Below, one piece after another: positions 3,153-51,752 of a stretch of DNA of 64,000 nt. Both the position numbers and the translations under genes were made by a program. The notes under the pieces were generated by a model, which had not been told where the DNA came from, did no database searches, and saw only the letters and a program-made list of their open reading frames with translations. This DNA is from Phlyctochytrium arcticum (Eukaryota > Chytridiomycota > Chytridiomycetes > Chytridiales > Chytridiaceae), in the NCBI GenBank assembly GCA_025602905.1, contig JAHLKI010000007.1:310001-374000 (forward strand), given 5' to 3'. Position 1 is the stretch's first letter. Every line of letters starts with the position of its first letter.

Positions 3153-4171
3153 ATGAACTTTCTCCAACTGAGCGCCAAACGAATGTCTGGAAAGCGTCTG
3201 CTGTCTGCTGGTCTCCATCACTTCGCCCCGACTCTGCAAGTCTCTCGTTCCCTCTGGAGCGTCACTCGCTCAGTAAGTATAACTGTGATGATTGTATGTG
3301 ACATTGTATGTGTGCCAAAGTCTAATTGTCTATGCTGCAGACCTACGGAGTGACCGGCTCAGTACTTGGCCATGAGCTGTTGGTCAAGAAGCAATTTGCG
3401 TCATTCGGCCTGCACACCACCGCTATCGTGCAAAAAGATGTGCAATCACCCGTGGGAGCCTTTGAGCGTCTGAACACCAAGAAATGGTCAAAGGAGGAGG
3501 ACGAGTGTTTGCTACAGATCATCAAGGAGCACAGTGATAGCCCCGACAGATGGGTACTCGCCTCTGAGACCCTTCTCGACAAATTTGGGATTTATCGCTC
3601 GGACCGCGCGTGCACTACTCACCACCATCACATCTGTGGACATATGGCCCCTCCTAGAGCGTGGACTAAGGAAGAGGACAAAAAACTTATTGAATTGTAC
3701 AAAAAACGAACCCCGTTAATTGACATTAGCGAGGCATTGTCTCGATCCACCCACTCGGTCCAAAAGCGCCATACTCGTTTGACCAATCCTCTCTTCACTG
3801 GGGTCAAGAGGGGCCCGTACAGCGACAAAGAATCAGAGATTATCAGATCGATGGTCGAAGAGCAGATAGCCAGAACAGGAGCGCCGTCTTGGCGCGCCAT
3901 TGGGAAAAAGCTGAACCGCGATGAAGATTCAGTGCGGATTCATTACGATGGGACCCTATCCGGCGGCAACGGGGGTCCATTCACTTTGGAGGAGGTTAAA
4001 ACGATTCAAAAGGCGAATGACTTAGTGGCCCAAGGTGGTGAGCCTGACTGGAGGGCCATTGCCGCGACCATGGACAGATCGGTGGTCAGTGTCAAAGGCC
4101 GAGCGAAAAGGATGATGGCCAAACAGAACGGTGAAAGTGCCGAGGCTGAAAAGGAGGTCAAGACTGAATAG
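3153..4171 (+). CDS. Myb/SANT-like multi-repeat protein with basic N-terminal leader
   Basis: Two exons (3153-3272 and 3341-4171, 68-base intron with GTAAGT donor and CTGCAG acceptor) give 316 residues. Several Myb/SANT-like helical repeats follow each other: one starts at KKWSKEEDECLLQIIKEH, one at RAWTKEEDKKLIELYKK, one at RGPYSDKESEIIRSMVEEQ, and a last one around FTLEEVKTIQKAND. Each begins with the aromatic-acidic pattern of Myb repeats, and the regularly placed later Trp are partly kept. The first exon encodes a leader of about 40 residues rich in Arg, Ser and Leu with almost no acidic residue. That resembles a mitochondrial presequence, which would be unusual for a Myb protein. DNA binding is inferred from the repeats; localisation and targets are not known. 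Confidence 0.75.
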
Positions 4172-43488: not shown

Positions 43489-43540
43489 GATAGACTTCAT
43501 AAATTCGTCCATCCTTGGACAGATTTCGCTCTGCAGAAGG
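43489..43540 (+). repeat. DIRS left inverted terminal repeat, outer part
   Basis: Outer part of the left terminal repeat, complementary to the first half of the ICR (51653-51710). It ends with the first copy of the GCAGAAGG target duplication made by the nested transposon. Confidence 0.85.
43533..43540 (+). repeat. 8-bp target site duplication, left copy
   Basis: GCAGAAGG, directly outside the left terminal inverted repeat of the nested DNA transposon. Identical to 47464-47471. The uninterrupted site is seen, reverse-complemented, in the ICR at about 51659-51666. Confidence 0.92.
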
Positions 43541-43565
43541 CCCAGCGCACGGGTTCCATTTTAGG
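43541..43565 (+). repeat. Left terminal inverted repeat of the nested transposon
   Basis: 25 bases, perfect reverse complement of 47439-47463. Begins CCCAGCGC at the element end. Confidence 0.95.
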
Positions 43566-43963
43566 CTAAATGATCTCAAACTTGTGCGCAGCTGTGGACT
43601 GAACACTTTCTGAGCAGAAGAACGTCTATTAAAACCTTAAAGATAGGCATACTGATATGAATGATTCCCTTTCAATGAAGTCAAATTTGAGGTTTCCAAA
43701 AAAAAATTCACGCTTTGGTAATAAAACTAGTCTATTCTACGAAAATTTTGAGAAGAGAGTATAACCGCGATGGGCTTGTTGGAGGATTGGAGACTTGGAC
43801 CTGGATAGATTCAGTTAAAAATTGCAGGAATGAAATTTCAGACATGTCTCTAGGAACTGACACAAGCTGTGGGCATTTGGTGCGGTCATTCCGGCGATTG
43901 ATGCATATCTATGTCCGCGTTTGTGTCAGCACGATCAAGATGCGGTAGGTCACAGTGAGTTAC

Positions 43964-46900
43964 TTACCACAGCTCCTCAGTGATCTCCTCATCCTCATCT
44001 TCGTCTCTTACAAAGTCTTCATCCGAGAGGGGCTTCGCCATGTTGTGTATCCACCAGATAAATTCATTCCCAGCAATTAACTGTTTGAGGTGAATGCAGA
44101 TATCTTGACTCAAAATAGGGCATTGACAAATGATTGAACCAGGCCTCATCGGGGGTTTTTCGAATGTGGAAAACTTATTGAAGAACTTCTTATTGTCAGT
44201 TGCGGCATCACCTTGATTGGTTATGTCTTGAAGCGGGGTTCGCACTCTCTCAACTGCAGCAAAGTCACTAATATCCGTGTGAACGTTCAGAGGAACGACC
44301 TTCTTATCTCCCCAGAGGGTAAGTGGTAATAACCGTTCGGACACAGTCACGATTACTTCAGGCGGGATATTACAGTTGATGAATTTCGAAATTTTGGTGT
44401 TCTTCTTTCGCTTCTTCTTCGCGGGTTCCGTTGCTGTAGCGGTTGATGGCTGGGATGGGGCCACTATATAGCGGACCTGATACCCGCGAACTTTTCTAGC
44501 GGTGGCAGAATGAGAGAACATCATCTCTCCCTTGATGGTGATGTTGGGCGAATTGGCAATGAGTTTGCGGAACATGTCCTTAAGAGTAGCGACCATGATT
44601 TCGAGATGTGAGTTAAAGTACTGTGTACGTTTGGTCTCTACGGGCTGTCGTGGTTGAAGTGTGAACTTTCCCGCGAACTTTGTCCATGGTGTCCGCTTTT
44701 TCCTGTCGTCAGCTTTTTGTTTTGCGACTTGCGCCAGAAATGACCTTGAACTTAAATTTTTGTTTGCAGAGAGGTAAAGTGTGTTTAAGACGGCACGGCC
44801 GTGCGAGTCGAATGGCCGGATGCAAGCACGGAGGAGGGAGTGGAAAACCTCCAGATCCTCAGAACTTGCTAGTGGCAGGTTGCTGTATAGCGCAGCAGTG
44901 ATGTTATCATCACCCCCCATCTCAATCTCCTGGATTGCAGAGAGAATGTGGAGAACGATGGTGACATAGTTCCTTTTGCGATATCGTATGAAGAGTGGCA
45001 ACAACCTATGCAGTACCTCCTTATACAGCACAATGTTGCCGCTGGCCATGGCCGTTGCAGCATCCAGTACGAGCGGCAACTCTTCATCGAACAGCCGGAT
45101 GAGGGAGTCCACTATGACACGCTGGAATTCGGGGAGATCTTTCTGCTGTTTCGCCCAATCCATCACTTGGACACGGCACTGTTTCCAAGCTAAGAACATC
45201 ATTGTTAGCAACATCATGCGCCTTACAGGTCGCAGCTTTACTAGTTGAACGGCAAAATCCGGGAATGCGGAGCTCCAAATAGGCATGAACACATTGAAGT
45301 TCCATTGCAATAACGCTGTGATGCATTAAGTATGTAGCCTTGAGACGATGATAATAAGGATTTACCTTGCTGGGCATTCAGTGCGATGTGCATACCATCA
45401 GGCCATGGGCAAAGAACGATTCGGAGATATGCATGGTCTGGAGATAGACGGCCCCGCGTTTTCGCCCATAGTATCTTCATGACGTTCCGCCAAACATAAA
45501 AGTCGCCAGTAATGAAAATCGCTCCGTCTTTGTAGTGTTCAATAAACTTCTTGACGGAAACCATTAGAGATCGTAAATCTTCCGCAGTCTTCATTCTGTT
45601 CGGCATCGCATCGAAAACATGAAACTGTTTTAATTCAGCGGCACTGGTTGACATGTCGAATTGATACGGCCTGCGAAAAGCATTCGCTTGGTTTGTGTTG
45701 ATAATTTTTTCGCCGTAGGTTTCCTTCTCAACGATGTCAGTTATTGCTTTGTCTAGGAGAGGCGCGTTGACGAAGGCCTTCTTGTCCTTGTCAGATCCCA
45801 TGTCACTGAAGTCTATATACGGCTTTTCCAAGAGTGGTAGAGGTAAAGCTCGATGTACGTGTCCATTCTCCTCATCATAAGACGATTGCCCCTTCGGAAA
45901 AAACTTCACAGCCAAGTTAGCTTGAGTTTGCACGGTGCTGAACTTTCCTGAGTTCGCCGAACCAGGTGTTCCATGAACTGAAACTCTGTTGAAGTCGTCC
46001 ATCTTGACAACTGGAACAACTGTACCCCCGCTCATCTGTTCGGTCAGCTCCTTGTACGCCCTCGCGTTCGCTTCCTTCATTTTCTGCTTCGCTACGTCCG
46101 GACTGAAACTCAAATTAAAAGACGCGAGCACCTTTCTACTGCTCTCGGATAATCCTAATGTGGTTGATATCAACACATCCTTCATGAAATTGATGTGGGG
46201 ATGAAGGAATGCGGCCTTCTGTACAGTAATGGAAGCTATGATTCTTCTCCTTCTCTCTGACTCTGTTTGCTTCCAGCTAACAGCTGGTAGAAATGTTTCA
46301 GTTTCACTGGTATGAGTGGTCAAGCATTAGGTACCTGAGAGCCCCAAGTCGACCGCTGTCTTCGTCGCCAAATTGTCGCAACTATCTAAATGCTCAATAA
46401 ACGCGTCCAAATCCGATGTAAAAGGCATCTTGAGATCACACTCCTTGTCAAGCAGGTCAAGAACGCCGTTCCTAAACTTCAAGGTATCGGACATGACCGG
46501 CTCAACAAAATCGTTCCTGTTGTCCTCCAAGTCGACAGTGATAGTGCCAAAGTTGATTGTGCGCGTAGGCGTAGGTGAGGCGATCGTGGGCGAGCCGAAT
46601 GTGGGCGAGCCAAACGTGGGCGTGACGGGTGTATGCACCCCGAAAATAGGCTCAACGGGTTCAAACGTTGCAGGTGTAGGCATGACAGGTTGTGCAATCA
46701 CGGATATTGGCGGTACCGGCATGGGCGTGACGTGTGTGATGATTGTCGATGTACTAGTTGCGACTGCCTGGGCATCGTTTTCCTTCTGATTTACTCGAAA
46801 CAAGGGGTGTGGGTACTTGCGGTCAAGTTGGTTCCAGCATTTTTTGCAAAACGTGGCATTCTTGTGGCCGGCATCCGTGCTGAAATGAAATGGGACGTTG

Positions 46901-47067
46901 TTCGCTCGAAGATGGGCAAGAAGACCGAGATCTCGATGGCAGTAGCGGGTACTGGACTTAGTCTTGCAAATGATGCAGACAGGCTTGACTCCTTTCGGTT
47001 CTGTATCGTTGAATGGTGCGATGAATCGGCCATCCTGCCGCCGATTATTGGGGGGACTAGAAGCCAT
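43964..47067 (-). CDS. Putative transposase of the nested DNA transposon, about 1,000 residues
   Basis: Exons 47067-46335, 46283-45367 and 45316-43964 (introns of 51 and 50 bases) sum to 3,003 bases, a whole 1,000 codons plus stop, which supports the splicing. An in-frame ATG at 47250 would add 61 residues. The N-terminal region has a Cys/His cluster (CIICKTKSSTRYCH and later FCKKCWNQL), a likely DNA-binding zinc finger, followed by a Pro/Thr-rich repeat linker (TFGSPTFGSPT). The centre has AIFITGDFYVWRNVMKILW, then LCPWPDGMHIALNAQQALLQ across intron 2, then FMPIWSSAFPDFAVQLVKLR. A GD, then P-D-G-x-H, then N-x-Q pattern may be the acid core of an RNase H-like transposase. A basic cluster (PAKKKRKKNTK) could be a nuclear signal, and the C-terminus is acidic. 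Confidence 0.75.
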
Positions 47068-47438
47068 GATAACTCGAGTGGACCCGGATAAAACGCTCCA
47101 ATATTGAAGACGGGCTGAGATAATATGTGTGCCGAGGGTATCTAAGCGTCTCCGTACTCGTCCAATGCGAGGGACCGAAACGGGGGGACCTGGAAGGGGG
47201 GGAGTTAAAAGAGAAATCGCCATCTGAAATTCGCACATAACTGTTATCATTGCTACACAAAACGGCTCAAAACGTCAGCCAATCCAAAGTGAATTATTAC
47301 ATCTCGAGGTTCGTGACGTAAAAGCGCAACTTTATTGACAGTCTGCAATGAAACAGGGTCAAGGTAGATTTACCAACACGTATTTCACGAACACGCCGGA
47401 GCTCTGATTACATCAGCGTGGCTGCGACTCTGATTTGT

Positions 47439-47463
47439 CCTAAAATGGAACCCGTGCGCTGGG
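47439..47463 (-). repeat. Right terminal inverted repeat of the nested transposon
   Basis: 25 bases, perfect inverted match to 43541-43565, ending GCGCTGGG at the element end. Confidence 0.95.
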
Positions 47464-47471
47464 GCAGAAGG
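47464..47471 (+). repeat. 8-bp target site duplication, right copy
   Basis: GCAGAAGG, identical to 43533-43540. Confidence 0.92.
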
Positions 47472-47570
47472 CCCGGTGTCAGTGATTATGCGTAATCTAA
47501 TATAACCATAAATGCTATAGAAAAGACTAAAATAGTGTCCCGTTCACCCTCCCGTTTCCCTTTGCCGTTT
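47464..47570 (+). repeat. DIRS left inverted terminal repeat, inner part
   Basis: Continues the left terminal repeat after the nested insert. Bases 47491-47567 are an almost perfect inverted match to 51818-51895, including the GTGTCCCGTTCACCCTCCCG block. The right repeat carries about 35 extra bases (around 51896-51931) that are absent here. Confidence 0.88.
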
Positions 47571-47649
47571 TCAGAGCAGCGAGTCTGGCAACATCGACAA
47601 GCTCTAACACAAAACTGACTACGACCCATCAACTAAACAACCTTCACCT

Positions 47650-48651
47650 ATGGCTGAAAATGCTCCTACTCAAACTAACGAAGTCGAGGCCTTGCACAAT
47701 ACGCTGGCAGGCCTCGGGATCTCAGTGGACGCCCTGCGTACGATCATGGCTCCCCAACAGAATACCAACACTCCTCCCAAGAAAGCTAAGTATAGACTCA
47801 ATCCTTGGGACTCGGAGAATGACGACGACTCCGATGGTTCTAGCTCAGACGAAGAACCACCTACCCACGCCGCCGAAGCCTTTAAAGCTGGACAATGGGA
47901 TCTACCCGAAGAAACTCGCAAGATCCTGGCTCCCGACGACGAAAGCGACGCCCGCCTTTCTCGCTACTACACTCGGCGTATTTTGCGTAAACAACGAGAA
48001 CCTCGAGGAGGCTTCTGCAAGTCAGCCGAGCTCGATCCAGCCCTTGCAGATCTCAAAGGGAAACGCGTTGAACATACAGTGGGCGAGCTCGACAAGCAGT
48101 ATGCGGATACAGAACGAGATTTCGGAGTCACCGCACGTAACGAAGCAATCCTCCTCTGGAAAGCTAACACGCTCGTCAAATTCCTCAAAGACAGTCGAGA
48201 GACCGGAGAACCTCTCGATGGCGACCAATTACTCGCTAGGGCAGAAGACTTGGCCCGTTCGTTGGAACACCAAGTCACTTACACAGCGCACCTCAAAGCC
48301 ACCACCCGCTTCAAGCGCCGCAAAGCGTTCATCTCCGGAGCTAAGATGCCCGCCGAAATCAAAGACGCAGGAGACAAAGAGCCGCTCCACAACCGTTGGC
48401 TTTTTGGCGACGACCTGGTCCAAACCTGGCGCCAAGCAAACGAGAGACGGAACACACAACAGGTTCTCTCCCTCGCTGCCAATCGAAACCGTGCGCCTAC
48501 CGATGCTAGACGCCCGCAGCAACCACACCGACCCCGTGGAGGATATCGAGGTCAGGGAAACGACAGGGGCCGCGGCCGGGGCCGTGGCCAAACCAACCAA
48601 CAGTACCAAAACACCAACCAATTCCAGAACGGGAACCCGACAGCCAATTGA
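47650..48651 (+). CDS. DIRS ORF1, gag-like protein
   Basis: 333 residues from ATG 47650. It is acidic near the N-terminus (ENDDDSDGSSSDEE), then helical and charged. It ends in an RG-rich tail (RGGYRGQGNDRGRGRGRGQ) suited to nucleic-acid binding, as in Gag-like products of tyrosine-recombinase retroelements. It overlaps the start of the RT frame by a few bases. There is no zinc knuckle. Identification rests on position and composition. Confidence 0.75.
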   Translation: MAENAPTQTNEVEALHNTLAGLGISVDALRTIMAPQQNTNTPPKKAKYRLNPWDSENDDDSDGSSSDEEPPTHAAEAFKAGQWDLPEETRKILAPDDESDARLSRYYTRRILRKQREPRGGFCKSAELDPALADLKGKRVEHTVGELDKQYADTERDFGVTARNEAILLWKANTLVKFLKDSRETGEPLDGDQLLARAEDLARSLEHQVTYTAHLKATTRFKRRKAFISGAKMPAEIKDAGDKEPLHNRWLFGDDLVQTWRQANERRNTQQVLSLAANRNRAPTDARRPQQPHRPRGGYRGQGNDRGRGRGRGQTNQQYQNTNQFQNGNPTAN

Positions 48652-50764
48652 TAGCCACACTGGAACGAGCGACTTCGCAAGGGGCGAAGCGATGGCCGCT
48701 CAGACCAGAGCTGACCCCACGGGGGACACAGCGGTGCTGGCAGCAATGGCAGGACAGCGGAGTTGCCCCTTGGGCCAGCAGGATGATTCGGGAGGGAGTG
48801 TCAATCGAAATTCCACCCCATACAAAGATTCGCTCACGCTCACAAAAGTTTCGTCTGGCAATGAACGATCAAATGATTCTCGACAACCAGATCAAGGAGT
48901 GGCTGGACACGAAGGCAATAGTGGAGATCCAAGACCCCGAGGAGCGACCGCAATGCACTCTCTCAAACTTGTTCGTAGTGCACCAGCCGAACGGGAAAGC
49001 ACGTCCGTGCTTGGATGTCCGACACGTGAATGCGCACATCCCATACAATCACTTCAAGATGGAAGGAATGTCTACCCTTCGGGGTTTGATCCGCCCGGGG
49101 GACAAGATGGTCAAATTGGACTTGAAGGACGCTTACAATGCCCTCGCCCTTCACGCAGCTGCTCGTCGGTTCGTGTCGTTCGAGTGGCGGGGAAAGATCT
49201 ACCAATTCTGCGTTTTACCGTTCGGACTGAGCAACGCACCGCGGATATTCTCCAAGCTGATGCGAGCAGCACTGACACCCCTGCGTGAGAAGGGGATCCG
49301 CCTAGTGTTTTACCTCGACGACATACTGATACTCGGACGGACCAAGGAGGAAACAACGACGGCACTCGAGGAGGTGACGTCACAGCTGTTGCGGTTGGGT
49401 TTCACCATCAACCTGGCCAAATCGGTTCTACAACCAACCGAGACCATCCAATTCCTCGGATTCCAGGTCAACTCGAGGAATATGACGTTGACGCTGCCCA
49501 AAGACAAGGTCCGGTCCATCCGGAGAATGACCGACCAAGCAATTCTAAACCAGGTAATGACGGTCCGCCGCCTGGCGTCGCTGATTGGGGTGCTCAACAG
49601 TACGGCGCAGGCGGTCCGCCCCGCGCTGCTCCAGCTCCGTCACTTGCAACGGGAGCAGAATCGTGGCTTACGGAAAGAGGGCCGCTGGGACGCGTCGATA
49701 CTACTGAGCAAAGAGGCTCTCACGGAACTAACGTGGTGGCGCGATTCACTACGGACTTGGAACGGAGAATGCATCATTCCACAGGCGACGGACGAGACGC
49801 TGACAACTACGACCGACGCGTCCAGTCGCGCATGGGGATTCACCAATTCCACGAACCAGGAGACCAGCGGATTTTGGTCGATATGGGAGCGCCAACAGAG
49901 TTCGAACTACCGAGAGCTGAAGACAATCTTGTTCGCGCTACAGATTCACCGGGAACAATGGCGCCGGAAAACAGTCCGTCTGAGAACAGACAACACGACG
50001 GCGCTAGCGTACGTCAACAACCAAGGGGGTACCCGGTCCCCGCTCTTACTAGGCATTGCGAAACGATCTGCATGGAACGGAACATTCGACTGATAGCTCA
50101 GTTCATTCCCGGGAAGGAGAACGTTCACGCGGATCGCTTGAGTCGAATAACTTGGGACAGGAACGCATGGCAACTCCACCCTGTCGCATTCCAGACGATT
50201 CAAGCAGTATACGGAACTCGAACGATCGATCTTTTTGCCGACCGCCTGAACCGCCAGTGTCCCCGATTCTTCAGCTGGCGCCCAGATCCGGAAGCGGAAG
50301 GCACGGACGCCCTGGCCCAGAAATGGCCAACTACGGGAGCGTACGCCAATCCACCGTGGATCCTCATCCCGGACGTCCTCCGTATTCTCCAACAACAACG
50401 CGTGCGGGAACTGGTACTGATAACTCCCCGCTGGCCGGGCCAGGCGTGGTGGCCGGAGCTCTTGCGCCTGAGCGTAGCGCCGCCCCTAGTGATCAAGGCT
50501 CACCACAGCTTGTTCCGACCGGTACAACAGGGATTCGCACAAGGAGTGGGTCCCGCCAGTTGGGACTCCGTCGCATGGAACTTATCCGGGCGGCCAAATT
50601 ACACGAGGGCCTCTCGCCCGCCGCCGCAGCCCTTCTCTCAGAGGAGGTTAGGCCAAAGACTAGACGGAACAAGGACTCGAATTGGGGCAAATACAGTGCT
50701 TGGTGCCTCGAGAAGGGGCACGATCCAAGCAAATACGATGTCCCTGTCGCGGTCAATTTCTTGA
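48648..50764 (+). CDS. DIRS reverse transcriptase / RNase H / methyltransferase-like region, frame broken
   Basis: The first frame (48648-50093) starts without a good ATG; the first in-frame ATG is near 48786, so reinitiation or frameshifting from ORF1 is likely. RT motifs: LDVRHVNAHIPYNHFKMEG, VKLDLKDAYNALAL, LPFGLSNAPRIFSKLM and the catalytic FYLDDILILG. RNase H begins at TTTTDASSRAWGF and has LRTDNTTALAYVNNQGG. Within RNase H, at about 50030-50060, the frame must shift by one base to continue as ERNIRLIAQFIPGKENVHAD in the frame that runs to 50764. That second part holds FFSWRPDPEAEGTDAL and YANPPWILIPDVL; the NPPW recalls the adenine methyltransferase motif found in DIRS elements. Confidence 0.85.
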
Positions 50765-51651
50765 TGGATATGGCGAATACGCACACATTCAACTCCCTGC
50801 GTAACTACTCGAGCACCATATCCTCTACCTGGCTGCGTCTTCACCCGACGCGACCGCAGCTGGGGCGGACGCCCACCATGACCGATCTCCTACGCCGACT
50901 ACAGGATCGAACCGCGCGCCCGCGGCTTCCTCCGCCAACTTGGGACCCCATGATAATTTTGGACCACTTGCGGACTTCACCACTACCACAAGACTTACCG
51001 CTGGATGTATTGACAAAACGGACAGCGTTTTTAGTGAGTCTTTGCTCACTGTGGCGCCCACGATCGGACGTGGCAAGGATTTTGTATGAGGGGATGCGCT
51101 TTCAACCGCGCAACAAAATTCGAGCCACATCGGAGCCTGATTGGAGGACGTGGCCGTTAGACGAGGCCTTAGAGGGGGTCCATTTTCAAGAATTTAAGGT
51201 GAAAGAAGGACTCGAGAAACGACGCTACTTGCGCGCGTGGCCGGCGGATATTCGGATATGCCCGGTACACCACCTATTCCTCCTTCTCCGTCGTACTGAG
51301 GACCGCCGCCCGACACCCCATCCGACCTCGCACATTTTCTTGATTACTCGGGCCCCATACCGGGAAGCCTCCGGAGACACAATTGCCAACTGGATTCGAG
51401 AAATTATTGCGGCGCCGCCCCACTCTATCCGCGGGGTATCTTCTTCCGCCGCATGGCTCCGCGGTGCCGCCATCGATAGGGTGTTTGCCGCGGCAAACTG
51501 GAGTGAGCGTAGCCGCATGTTTTACCGTCACTACCTGCGCGAGGTACCGCAACACCCACCGGTCCCGCCCCTCAGCTATTCGGGCCGACAGATCGATGAG
51601 TCCGGGGATGTGGAACATGCCATTCTGGCCGGATCTACGAACTATCACTGA
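50575..51651 (+). CDS. DIRS tyrosine recombinase
   Basis: 358 residues from an ATG at 50575; the frame is open further upstream but there overlaps the RT region. The N-terminal core-binding part begins RAAKLHEGLSPAAAALLSEE and NKDSNWGKYSAWCLEKG. The catalytic part has the first Arg in LVSLCSLWRPRSDVARI, the HxxR box in PPHSIRGVSSSAAWLRG, the Trp-containing IDRVFAAANWSERSR, and the nucleophile region MFYRHYLRE. The R-H-R-Y set is complete, so this frame looks intact. The enzyme would integrate the circular cDNA. Its stop codon lies inside the first bases of the ICR, the usual DIRS arrangement. Confidence 0.9.
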   Translation: MELIRAAKLHEGLSPAAAALLSEEVRPKTRRNKDSNWGKYSAWCLEKGHDPSKYDVPVAVNFLMDMANTHTFNSLRNYSSTISSTWLRLHPTRPQLGRTPTMTDLLRRLQDRTARPRLPPPTWDPMIILDHLRTSPLPQDLPLDVLTKRTAFLVSLCSLWRPRSDVARILYEGMRFQPRNKIRATSEPDWRTWPLDEALEGVHFQEFKVKEGLEKRRYLRAWPADIRICPVHHLFLLLRRTEDRRPTPHPTSHIFLITRAPYREASGDTIANWIREIIAAPPHSIRGVSSSAAWLRGAAIDRVFAAANWSERSRMFYRHYLREVPQHPPVPPLSYSGRQIDESGDVEHAILAGSTNYH

Positions 51652-51752
51652 CACCGGGCCTTCTGCAGAGCGAAATCTGTCCAAGGATGGACGAATTTAT
51701 GAAGTCTATCCGTAAGACGGATGAGCTCTAGGAAGGCCCGGTGGATGTGATT
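51646..51752 (+). repeat. DIRS internal complementary region
   Basis: Bases 51646-51710 are the reverse complement of the original left end (43489-43540 joined to 47472-47484). Bases 51711-51752 are the reverse complement of the right end (about 51925-51966). The two meet at 51710/51711. This region is the template proposed to close DIRS cDNA into a circle. Confidence 0.9.

Follow-up and report, generated by a model that had tools for sequence, protein, structure and literature searches.

The window analysed here is a 64,000-nucleotide stretch of the genome of the chytrid Phlyctochytrium arcticum, taken from an assembly of 31.5 Mb in 91 contigs, and positions 43541-47463 of the window are occupied by a single element of 3,923 bp. 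The element ends in terminal inverted repeats (TIRs) of the sequence CCCAGCGCACGGGTTCCATTTTAGG that are perfect over 25/25 bp and 94% identical over 31 bp, and it is flanked on both sides by the 8-bp target site duplication (TSD) GCAGAAGG. The gene of the element, encoded on the minus strand, consists of three exons that together specify 1,000 codons and a stop codon, separated by two introns of the GT-AG type, 51 and 50 nt in length. The perfect 25-bp TIRs, the 8-bp TSD and the three-exon, 1,000-codon gene of the original prediction were all confirmed on re-reading of the sequence, and the coordinates of these and other features are collected in Table 1.

Table 1. Features of the element and of the repeat that surrounds it, in window positions; residue numbers refer to the 1,000-amino acid protein.
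Feature	Position	Strand	Remarks
Host repeat, with the element in its left end; not part of the transposon	43490..51709	+	Right boundary approximate, with related sequence extending to 51890
Left TSD copy, GCAGAAGG, 8 bp	43533..43540	.	Single copy in empty paralogues L130 and L131
Left TIR, 25 bp	43541..43565	+	
Right TIR, 25 bp	47439..47463	-	
Right TSD copy	47464..47471	.	
Putative transposase exon 1	46335..47067	-	GT, AG splice sites retained in 9/9 copies
Putative transposase exon 2	45366..46283	-	Splice sites retained in 9/9 copies
Putative transposase exon 3 and stop codon	43964..45315	-	Splice sites retained in 9/9 copies
CxxC...CxxC zinc-finger-like stretch, N-terminal, residues 31-77	46837..46977	-	Pattern in 8/26 sequences, many of them truncated
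Candidate first catalytic Asp, D340 (MDDFN)	45997..45999	-	19/19 sequences having the position, of 29 aligned; role putative
Candidate second catalytic Asp, D505 (GDFYVW)	45502..45504	-	22/22 sequences having the position, of 29 aligned
D(2)H motif, D540-G-M-H543	45388..45399	-	H543 in 24/24
Candidate catalytic Glu, E703 or E706 (SSEDLEVF)	44849..44860	-	Each 25/25, of 29 aligned
SWIM-like CxCx7CxH, residues 947-959	44090..44128	-	5/26 sequences: window protein, P0001, P0002, P0005, P0006

The repeat in which the element resides includes a reverse transcriptase and inverted ends, and is read as a DIRS-like retrotransposon; its last long frame is without a Pfam match at E 0.001, and thus without a recognised tyrosine recombinase. 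When the flanks of the element are joined, the resulting sequence is spanned by eight matches elsewhere in the genome, and the two that were inspected (L130 and L131) each possess one GCAGAAGG without an insert, and are thus paralogous empty sites. This nesting within a retrotransposon, as well as the D(2)H signature, the weak link to DUF6589 and the CACGTG preference that are described below, were absent from the original prediction.

With up to three mismatches allowed, the 31.5-Mb genome has 27 occurrences of the 25-mer TIR (21 perfect, six with one mismatch), compared to zero of a reversed-pattern control, and a DNA search of the genome returned 60 matching pieces, ends included. Nine copies were aligned, one of which was covered only up to base 3,861. 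By substitutions, with indels left out, the nine are 99.5-99.9% identical, the other eight carrying 4-19 substitutions relative to the window copy. The whole reading frame is intact in six of the nine, including the window copy, and all four splice dinucleotides are retained in every one. The identity among copies and the 6/9 intact frames support the earlier description of the element as young.

Copies with these ends belong to what is here termed subfamily I, for which a two-ended set of 15 insertions was assembled, consisting of ten members of the close family of the window copy and five relatives of ~72% DNA identity. Perfect 8-bp TSDs, all different, were found at 14 of the 15 insertions, and the TSD of the remaining one has a single mismatch; the mobile-element reading of the original prediction is supported by these same-ended copies with differing duplications. 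Two insertions of this set became apparent only when the flanks of an oppositely oriented pair of copies on contig 5 were re-paired; the TSDs of this pair are shared crosswise in the pattern expected from an inversion between the two copies, one end of which has a shortened TIR.

More distant members of the family were sought among 5.8 billion proteins with three queries, a single sequence and two alignments, candidates being required to share exact words. At least 28 distinct relatives were recovered, of which 27 belong to P. arcticum and the remaining one to Thoreauomyces humboldtii, which is a member of a different chytrid order and whose relative is known here from protein alone; a scan of IMG/VR yielded 106 pattern matches, none of them relatives. 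A 22-row tree splits the family into subfamilies I (five rows), II (one row), III (two rows) and IV, beside which the Thoreauomyces row is placed on a long branch. The ends of subfamily II (CCCAGGRCGGACCTCCCAG) number 29 at up to two mismatches and those of subfamily IV (CTCAGCGCAACCCGNGTTTT) number 112, with zero in both controls, while subfamily III ends (CTCAGGCGGCTAGTCCTAA) were matched seven times at up to three mismatches and the control eight times, so that only the six perfect ends of this subfamily count. A 5′-CYCAG terminus is common to all four subfamilies, the proteins of which are 22-67% identical to P0001, and TIRs in the family are about 19-25 bp in length. Among end pairs hand-chosen from the lists of ends, 8-bp TSDs flank 6/9 pairs of subfamily II (two of the three misses representing one duplicated site) and 3/3 of subfamily III, and are perfect in 23/30 pairs of subfamily IV, where three further pairs have one mismatch. 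Of the four other subfamily IV pairs, L106/L107 has ends 14 kb apart and likely represents two elements.

The flanks of subfamily I insertions share a short palindromic word, CACGTG, at a nearly constant distance from the element. With offsets counted outward from the element and the TSD occupying positions 1-8, CACGTG starts at +18 to +20 outside one end in 8/15 two-ended insertions and in one of three single-ended ones. Within 300 bp outside 32 subfamily I ends the word was found ten times, nine of them in this interval (seven exactly at +19, one at +18 and one at +20) and the tenth at +56. It sits on either side of the elements, and the positive insertions include 4/10 of the close family of the window copy and 4/5 of the ~72% relatives. 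The exact word at the fixed distance is missing from seven of the 15 two-ended insertions, including that of the window, which has a degenerate word only; one of the seven has CATGTG at +19. The word was first noticed by eye in the flanks of 13 insertions, and the test therefore rests mostly on the discovery set, outside of which L018/L019 and L020 are positive, and the word is missing from L017 and L026 (both single-ended) and from the flanks that came with L012.

CACGTG occurs 2,738 times in the genome, or once per 11.5 kb, and is rarer than its reversed control, a word with 4,643 occurrences. A binomial estimate puts the association at 3.5e-23, and at 1.3e-17 once all hexamers and 90 offsets are allowed for. 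When the flanks were rotated at random 2,000 times, no hexamer at any one offset was counted more than 5 times, compared to the 8 observed. Chance was rejected as the source of the association on the basis of these tests. In subfamilies II-IV the word was found at the fixed distance in 0/41 insertions (30 of subfamily IV, eight distinct ones of II and three of III; Fisher 4.5e-6 relative to subfamily I), and single occurrences lie at other distances: +43 and +94 in IV, +35 in II and +44 in III. A literature search on CACGTG and transposases gave no precedent among the matches listed, judged by title.

How the word is recognised is a matter on which two readings are close. CACGTG is the classic site of bHLH proteins and is bound by Cbf1/USF-like factors, and it has nearly an even chance of being true that the complex carrying out integration is tethered at a constant distance by a host factor of this type, the preference then not being made by the transposase. 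In keeping with such tethering, no CACGTG was found inside the six subfamily I elements scanned, unlike Dada elements, whose subterminal repeats carry the target word that lies at the same distance in the target (PMC3706591); a Dada-like copying of the target word within the element was accordingly rejected. The lack of the word in a 4-kb element nevertheless says little, because it is expected only every 11.5 kb. The character of the target sites points in the same direction as tethering: the CACGTG-bearing empty sites look non-coding, with a frame open through 192 bp in 2/8, compared to 16/26 empty sites of subfamily IV. The corresponding values are 5/15 for subfamily I as a whole and 4/6 for subfamily II, and the controls are 67% for random pieces of the window and 25% for shuffled sequence. 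These counts suggest that subfamily I sites are intergenic, but are too few to rest on. The near-rigid spacing, with 7/9 words exactly at +19, also fits a direct contact by the transposase. The lack of the word in the element argues mildly for a host factor, and the spacing mildly for the transposase, as the reader of CACGTG.

With regard to the protein, the Cys/His-rich N terminus noted earlier corresponds to a cluster between C31 and C77, and the central region reads GD...PDGMH...NAQ as had been described. In an alignment of 29 sequences the acidic residues D340, D505, D635, E703 and E706 are kept wherever the position is present (26/26 for D635), and the D of the DxxH motif is invariant in an 8-sequence alignment and conserved in at least 90% of an 18-sequence alignment. 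The Thoreauomyces protein retains DDF, GDFYVW, PDLLH and SSEDLEVFHS. Conservation does not distinguish between E703 and E706, each a candidate for the catalytic Glu, and D635 could be catalytic instead. Near the C terminus a CxCx7CxH motif, which we take to be SWIM-like, spans residues 947-959. Neither this motif nor the cluster at residues 31-77 exceeds a Pfam cut-off, and Pfam searches with three C-terminal and two N-terminal pieces gave no SWIM match and weak unrelated matches only. Sequence searches of the PDB gave no support for an RNase H fold: the sole match, a designed TIM barrel found at E 0.29 and 0.0022, was taken as spurious.

The order D, D, DxxH, E is the signature of the hAT, Kolobok, P, MuDR, IS256 and Dada superfamilies, as set out in PMC3706591, and its conservation here suggests that the protein is a DDE transposase of the hAT/MULE/P/Dada clan. 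Profile searches did not place it further. The window protein has zero Pfam matches at E <= 10, and none of 18 aligned members matches a hAT, MULE, P, Kolobok, Dada, piggyBac, CACTA/Plavaka, KDZ or CxC model at this threshold, at which the HMMER filters discard most matches above about 0.1; the original prediction, which recognised no motifs of hAT, P, KDZ, MULE or piggyBac transposases, agrees with this result. NCBIfam was likewise without a match in five proteins of the family, so that a clear match to a known superfamily, the outcome named in the original prediction as removing the novelty, was found neither in Pfam nor, for these five relatives, in NCBIfam. The only recurrent Pfam match is to DUF6589 (PF20231), for which Pfam states no function and which was compared by Pfam profile alone. 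It was found in 7/18 members with a best E of 5e-5 and 22.6 bits, below the curated cut-off of 27 bits, and a six-frame search of the genome gave 18 matches that are also sub-threshold (best 23.7 bits); the matches are confined to profile positions 233-325 of 410. Eight other Pfam families matched one or two of the 18 members, with a best E of 0.053. The family is perhaps distantly related to DUF6589 proteins, of which no mention was found in the literature searched.

The C-terminal SWIM-like cluster is a feature known from MULEs, and this likeness is among the observations that would fit a second alternative, namely that the element is not new but a very divergent member of a known superfamily of the DxxH type (hAT, MULE/MuDR, P, Kolobok, Dada or KDZ). 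Other likenesses are the DxxH or CxxH past the second D in hAT, Kolobok, P, MuDR, IS256 and Dada (PMC3706591) and the 8-bp TSD, a length that is usual among hAT elements and has been reported in Zisupton/KDZ (PMC12730594, PMC12810828). We consider this alternative unlikely given the empty Pfam searches and the results of profile-profile comparison: hhalign with 11 MULE frames from the same genome gave a probability of 0.2% (E 0.26), compared to 100% for subfamily I with subfamily IV (E 2.6e-60) and 100% with Thoreauomyces (E 6.3e-40). The Pfam MULE profile works in the P. arcticum genome, with 151 matches at E <= 0.01, and none of these was seen, by eye and among the matches listed, to overlap a protein match of the element family. 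Profile-profile comparison covered the MULEs, and hAT, P, Kolobok, Dada and KDZ were set apart by Pfam search or description; for KDZ, the TIRs of 139-241 bp described in Cryptococcus (PMC12810828) contrast with those of about 19-25 bp here. Under the rule used by Repbase, as given in PMC4455052, a superfamily is defined by transposases that do not converge to another superfamily in iterated searches, and by this non-convergence rule the family is a candidate new superfamily. That status is one we infer, and a distant kinship to a superfamily of the DxxH type is conceivable. No paper on the element family was found in the literature searched, judged by titles, and no title on P. arcticum was about transposons.

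A third alternative, that the CACGTG association reflects the survival of insertions in certain promoters and not targeting, is compatible with the 5/15 open frames at subfamily I empty sites but is very improbable, as survival would not restrict the spacing to one to three base positions, whichever side of the element the word is on, and subfamilies II-IV of the same genome show 0/41.

The probable reading of the ends, TSDs, empty site, multiplicity, intact copies, conserved residues and target word, taken together, is that of an autonomous DNA transposon of the cut-and-paste type, belonging to a candidate new superfamily in which subfamily I integrates beside an E-box-like CACGTG. For the 1,000-amino acid protein, the most likely identity is a DxxH-clan DDE transposase of the RNase-H-like kind, with D340, D505, D540xxH543 and either E703 or E706 as its putative catalytic residues, a zinc-finger-like cluster at the N terminus and a SWIM-like cluster at the C terminus. 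Such a transposase would bind the 5′-CYCAG-type terminal repeats, cut the element out and insert it into the two target strands at positions 8 bp apart, from which the 8-bp TSDs would result. In subfamily I the complex would be positioned by a contact to CACGTG that starts 10 bp, or about one helical turn, past the TSD, placing the word 17-19 bp (mostly 18) away from the element on either side. A bolder and more tentative version, to which we would assign somewhat less than an even chance, holds that the element represents the lineage, highly expanded, on which a so far unrecognised DDE superfamily of chytrids is founded, that DUF6589 is a transposase domain, and that one subfamily has evolved CACGTG-guided integration, mostly at 18 bp.

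With this family, an under-studied fungal lineage yields a candidate transposase superfamily, and DUF6589 receives a functional hint that, if true, would reveal it as a transposase domain. To our knowledge, few natural DNA transposons select their target by a short sequence that lies at a fixed distance. The combination of a young family, several intact copies and a simple palindromic word makes targeting by the transposase and targeting by a host factor directly testable, and bears on how transposons locate tolerable sites and on programmable insertion.

The element can be compared to several known systems. It resembles hAT elements in its 8-bp TSD, short TIRs and zinc-finger-like N terminus, and differs in having no hAT Pfam match and in its 5′-CYCAG ends, those of hAT elements being 5′-CAGNG. 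The likeness to MULEs extends to a C/DxxH motif with an N four residues past the H (CRWHxxxN in the MULEs of the same genome, DGMHIALN here), and is offset by the lack of a MULE Pfam match and the hhalign probability given above. By TSD the closest fungal group is KDZ, which shares the 8-bp duplication and a fungal transposase with a cysteine cluster, although the TSDs of the two Cryptococcus elements described range from 4 to 8 bp (PMC12810828, PMC12730594). The Cryptococcus elements are about 9-11 kb in length with the long TIRs noted above (PMC12810828), whereas the element here is 3.9 kb with TIRs of 25 bp, and KDZ has domains of its own (PMC12810828, PMC12730594), whereas the element is without a KDZ or CxC Pfam match. 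Dada elements, as described in PMC3706591, insert within small RNA genes and have TSDs of 6-7 bp, in contrast to the 8 bp found here, but they share the DDE triad with DxxH after the second D, and in some Dada families a target word lies at a set distance from the TSD, comparable to CACGTG in subfamily I.

A DIRS-like retrotransposon, which has inverted ends and a profile match to reverse transcriptase (RVT_1, E 4.6e-25), carries the transposon of the window nested within its left end; the transposon's insertion site is spanned without the insert by eight alignment matches elsewhere. A paralogue of this host repeat on contig C28 holds a subfamily IV element (paired ends L066/L067) whose insertion point is 2 bp from that of the window transposon; subfamilies I and IV have struck nearly one position in the repeat.

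Two further loci involve subfamily I copies. On C5, two copies (L011 and L012) lie in opposite orientation with target-site duplications that match crosswise between them, the mark of an inverted segment between both copies. Another copy, on C15, is interrupted by about 26.8 kb of DNA (L018 near 3591, L019 near 481), possibly a giant transposon, with inverted ends TGCCACGG at both borders and an accompanying 5-bp duplication, GACAT.

Coordinates of the loci
Feature	Sequence	Positions
DIRS-like retrotransposon	window	43490-51709 (right limit approximate)
L011 and L012	C5	1055702-1082063
L018/L019	C15	210290-237080
MULE-profile locus (example)	C36	213029-213280
MULE-profile locus (example)	C67	8891-9142

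Across the whole P. arcticum genome there are 151 MULE-profile matches at E <= 0.01. Among those listed, two are inside copies of the transposon family, one within the copy of L016, which belongs to subfamily I, and the other between the paired subfamily IV ends L108/L109.
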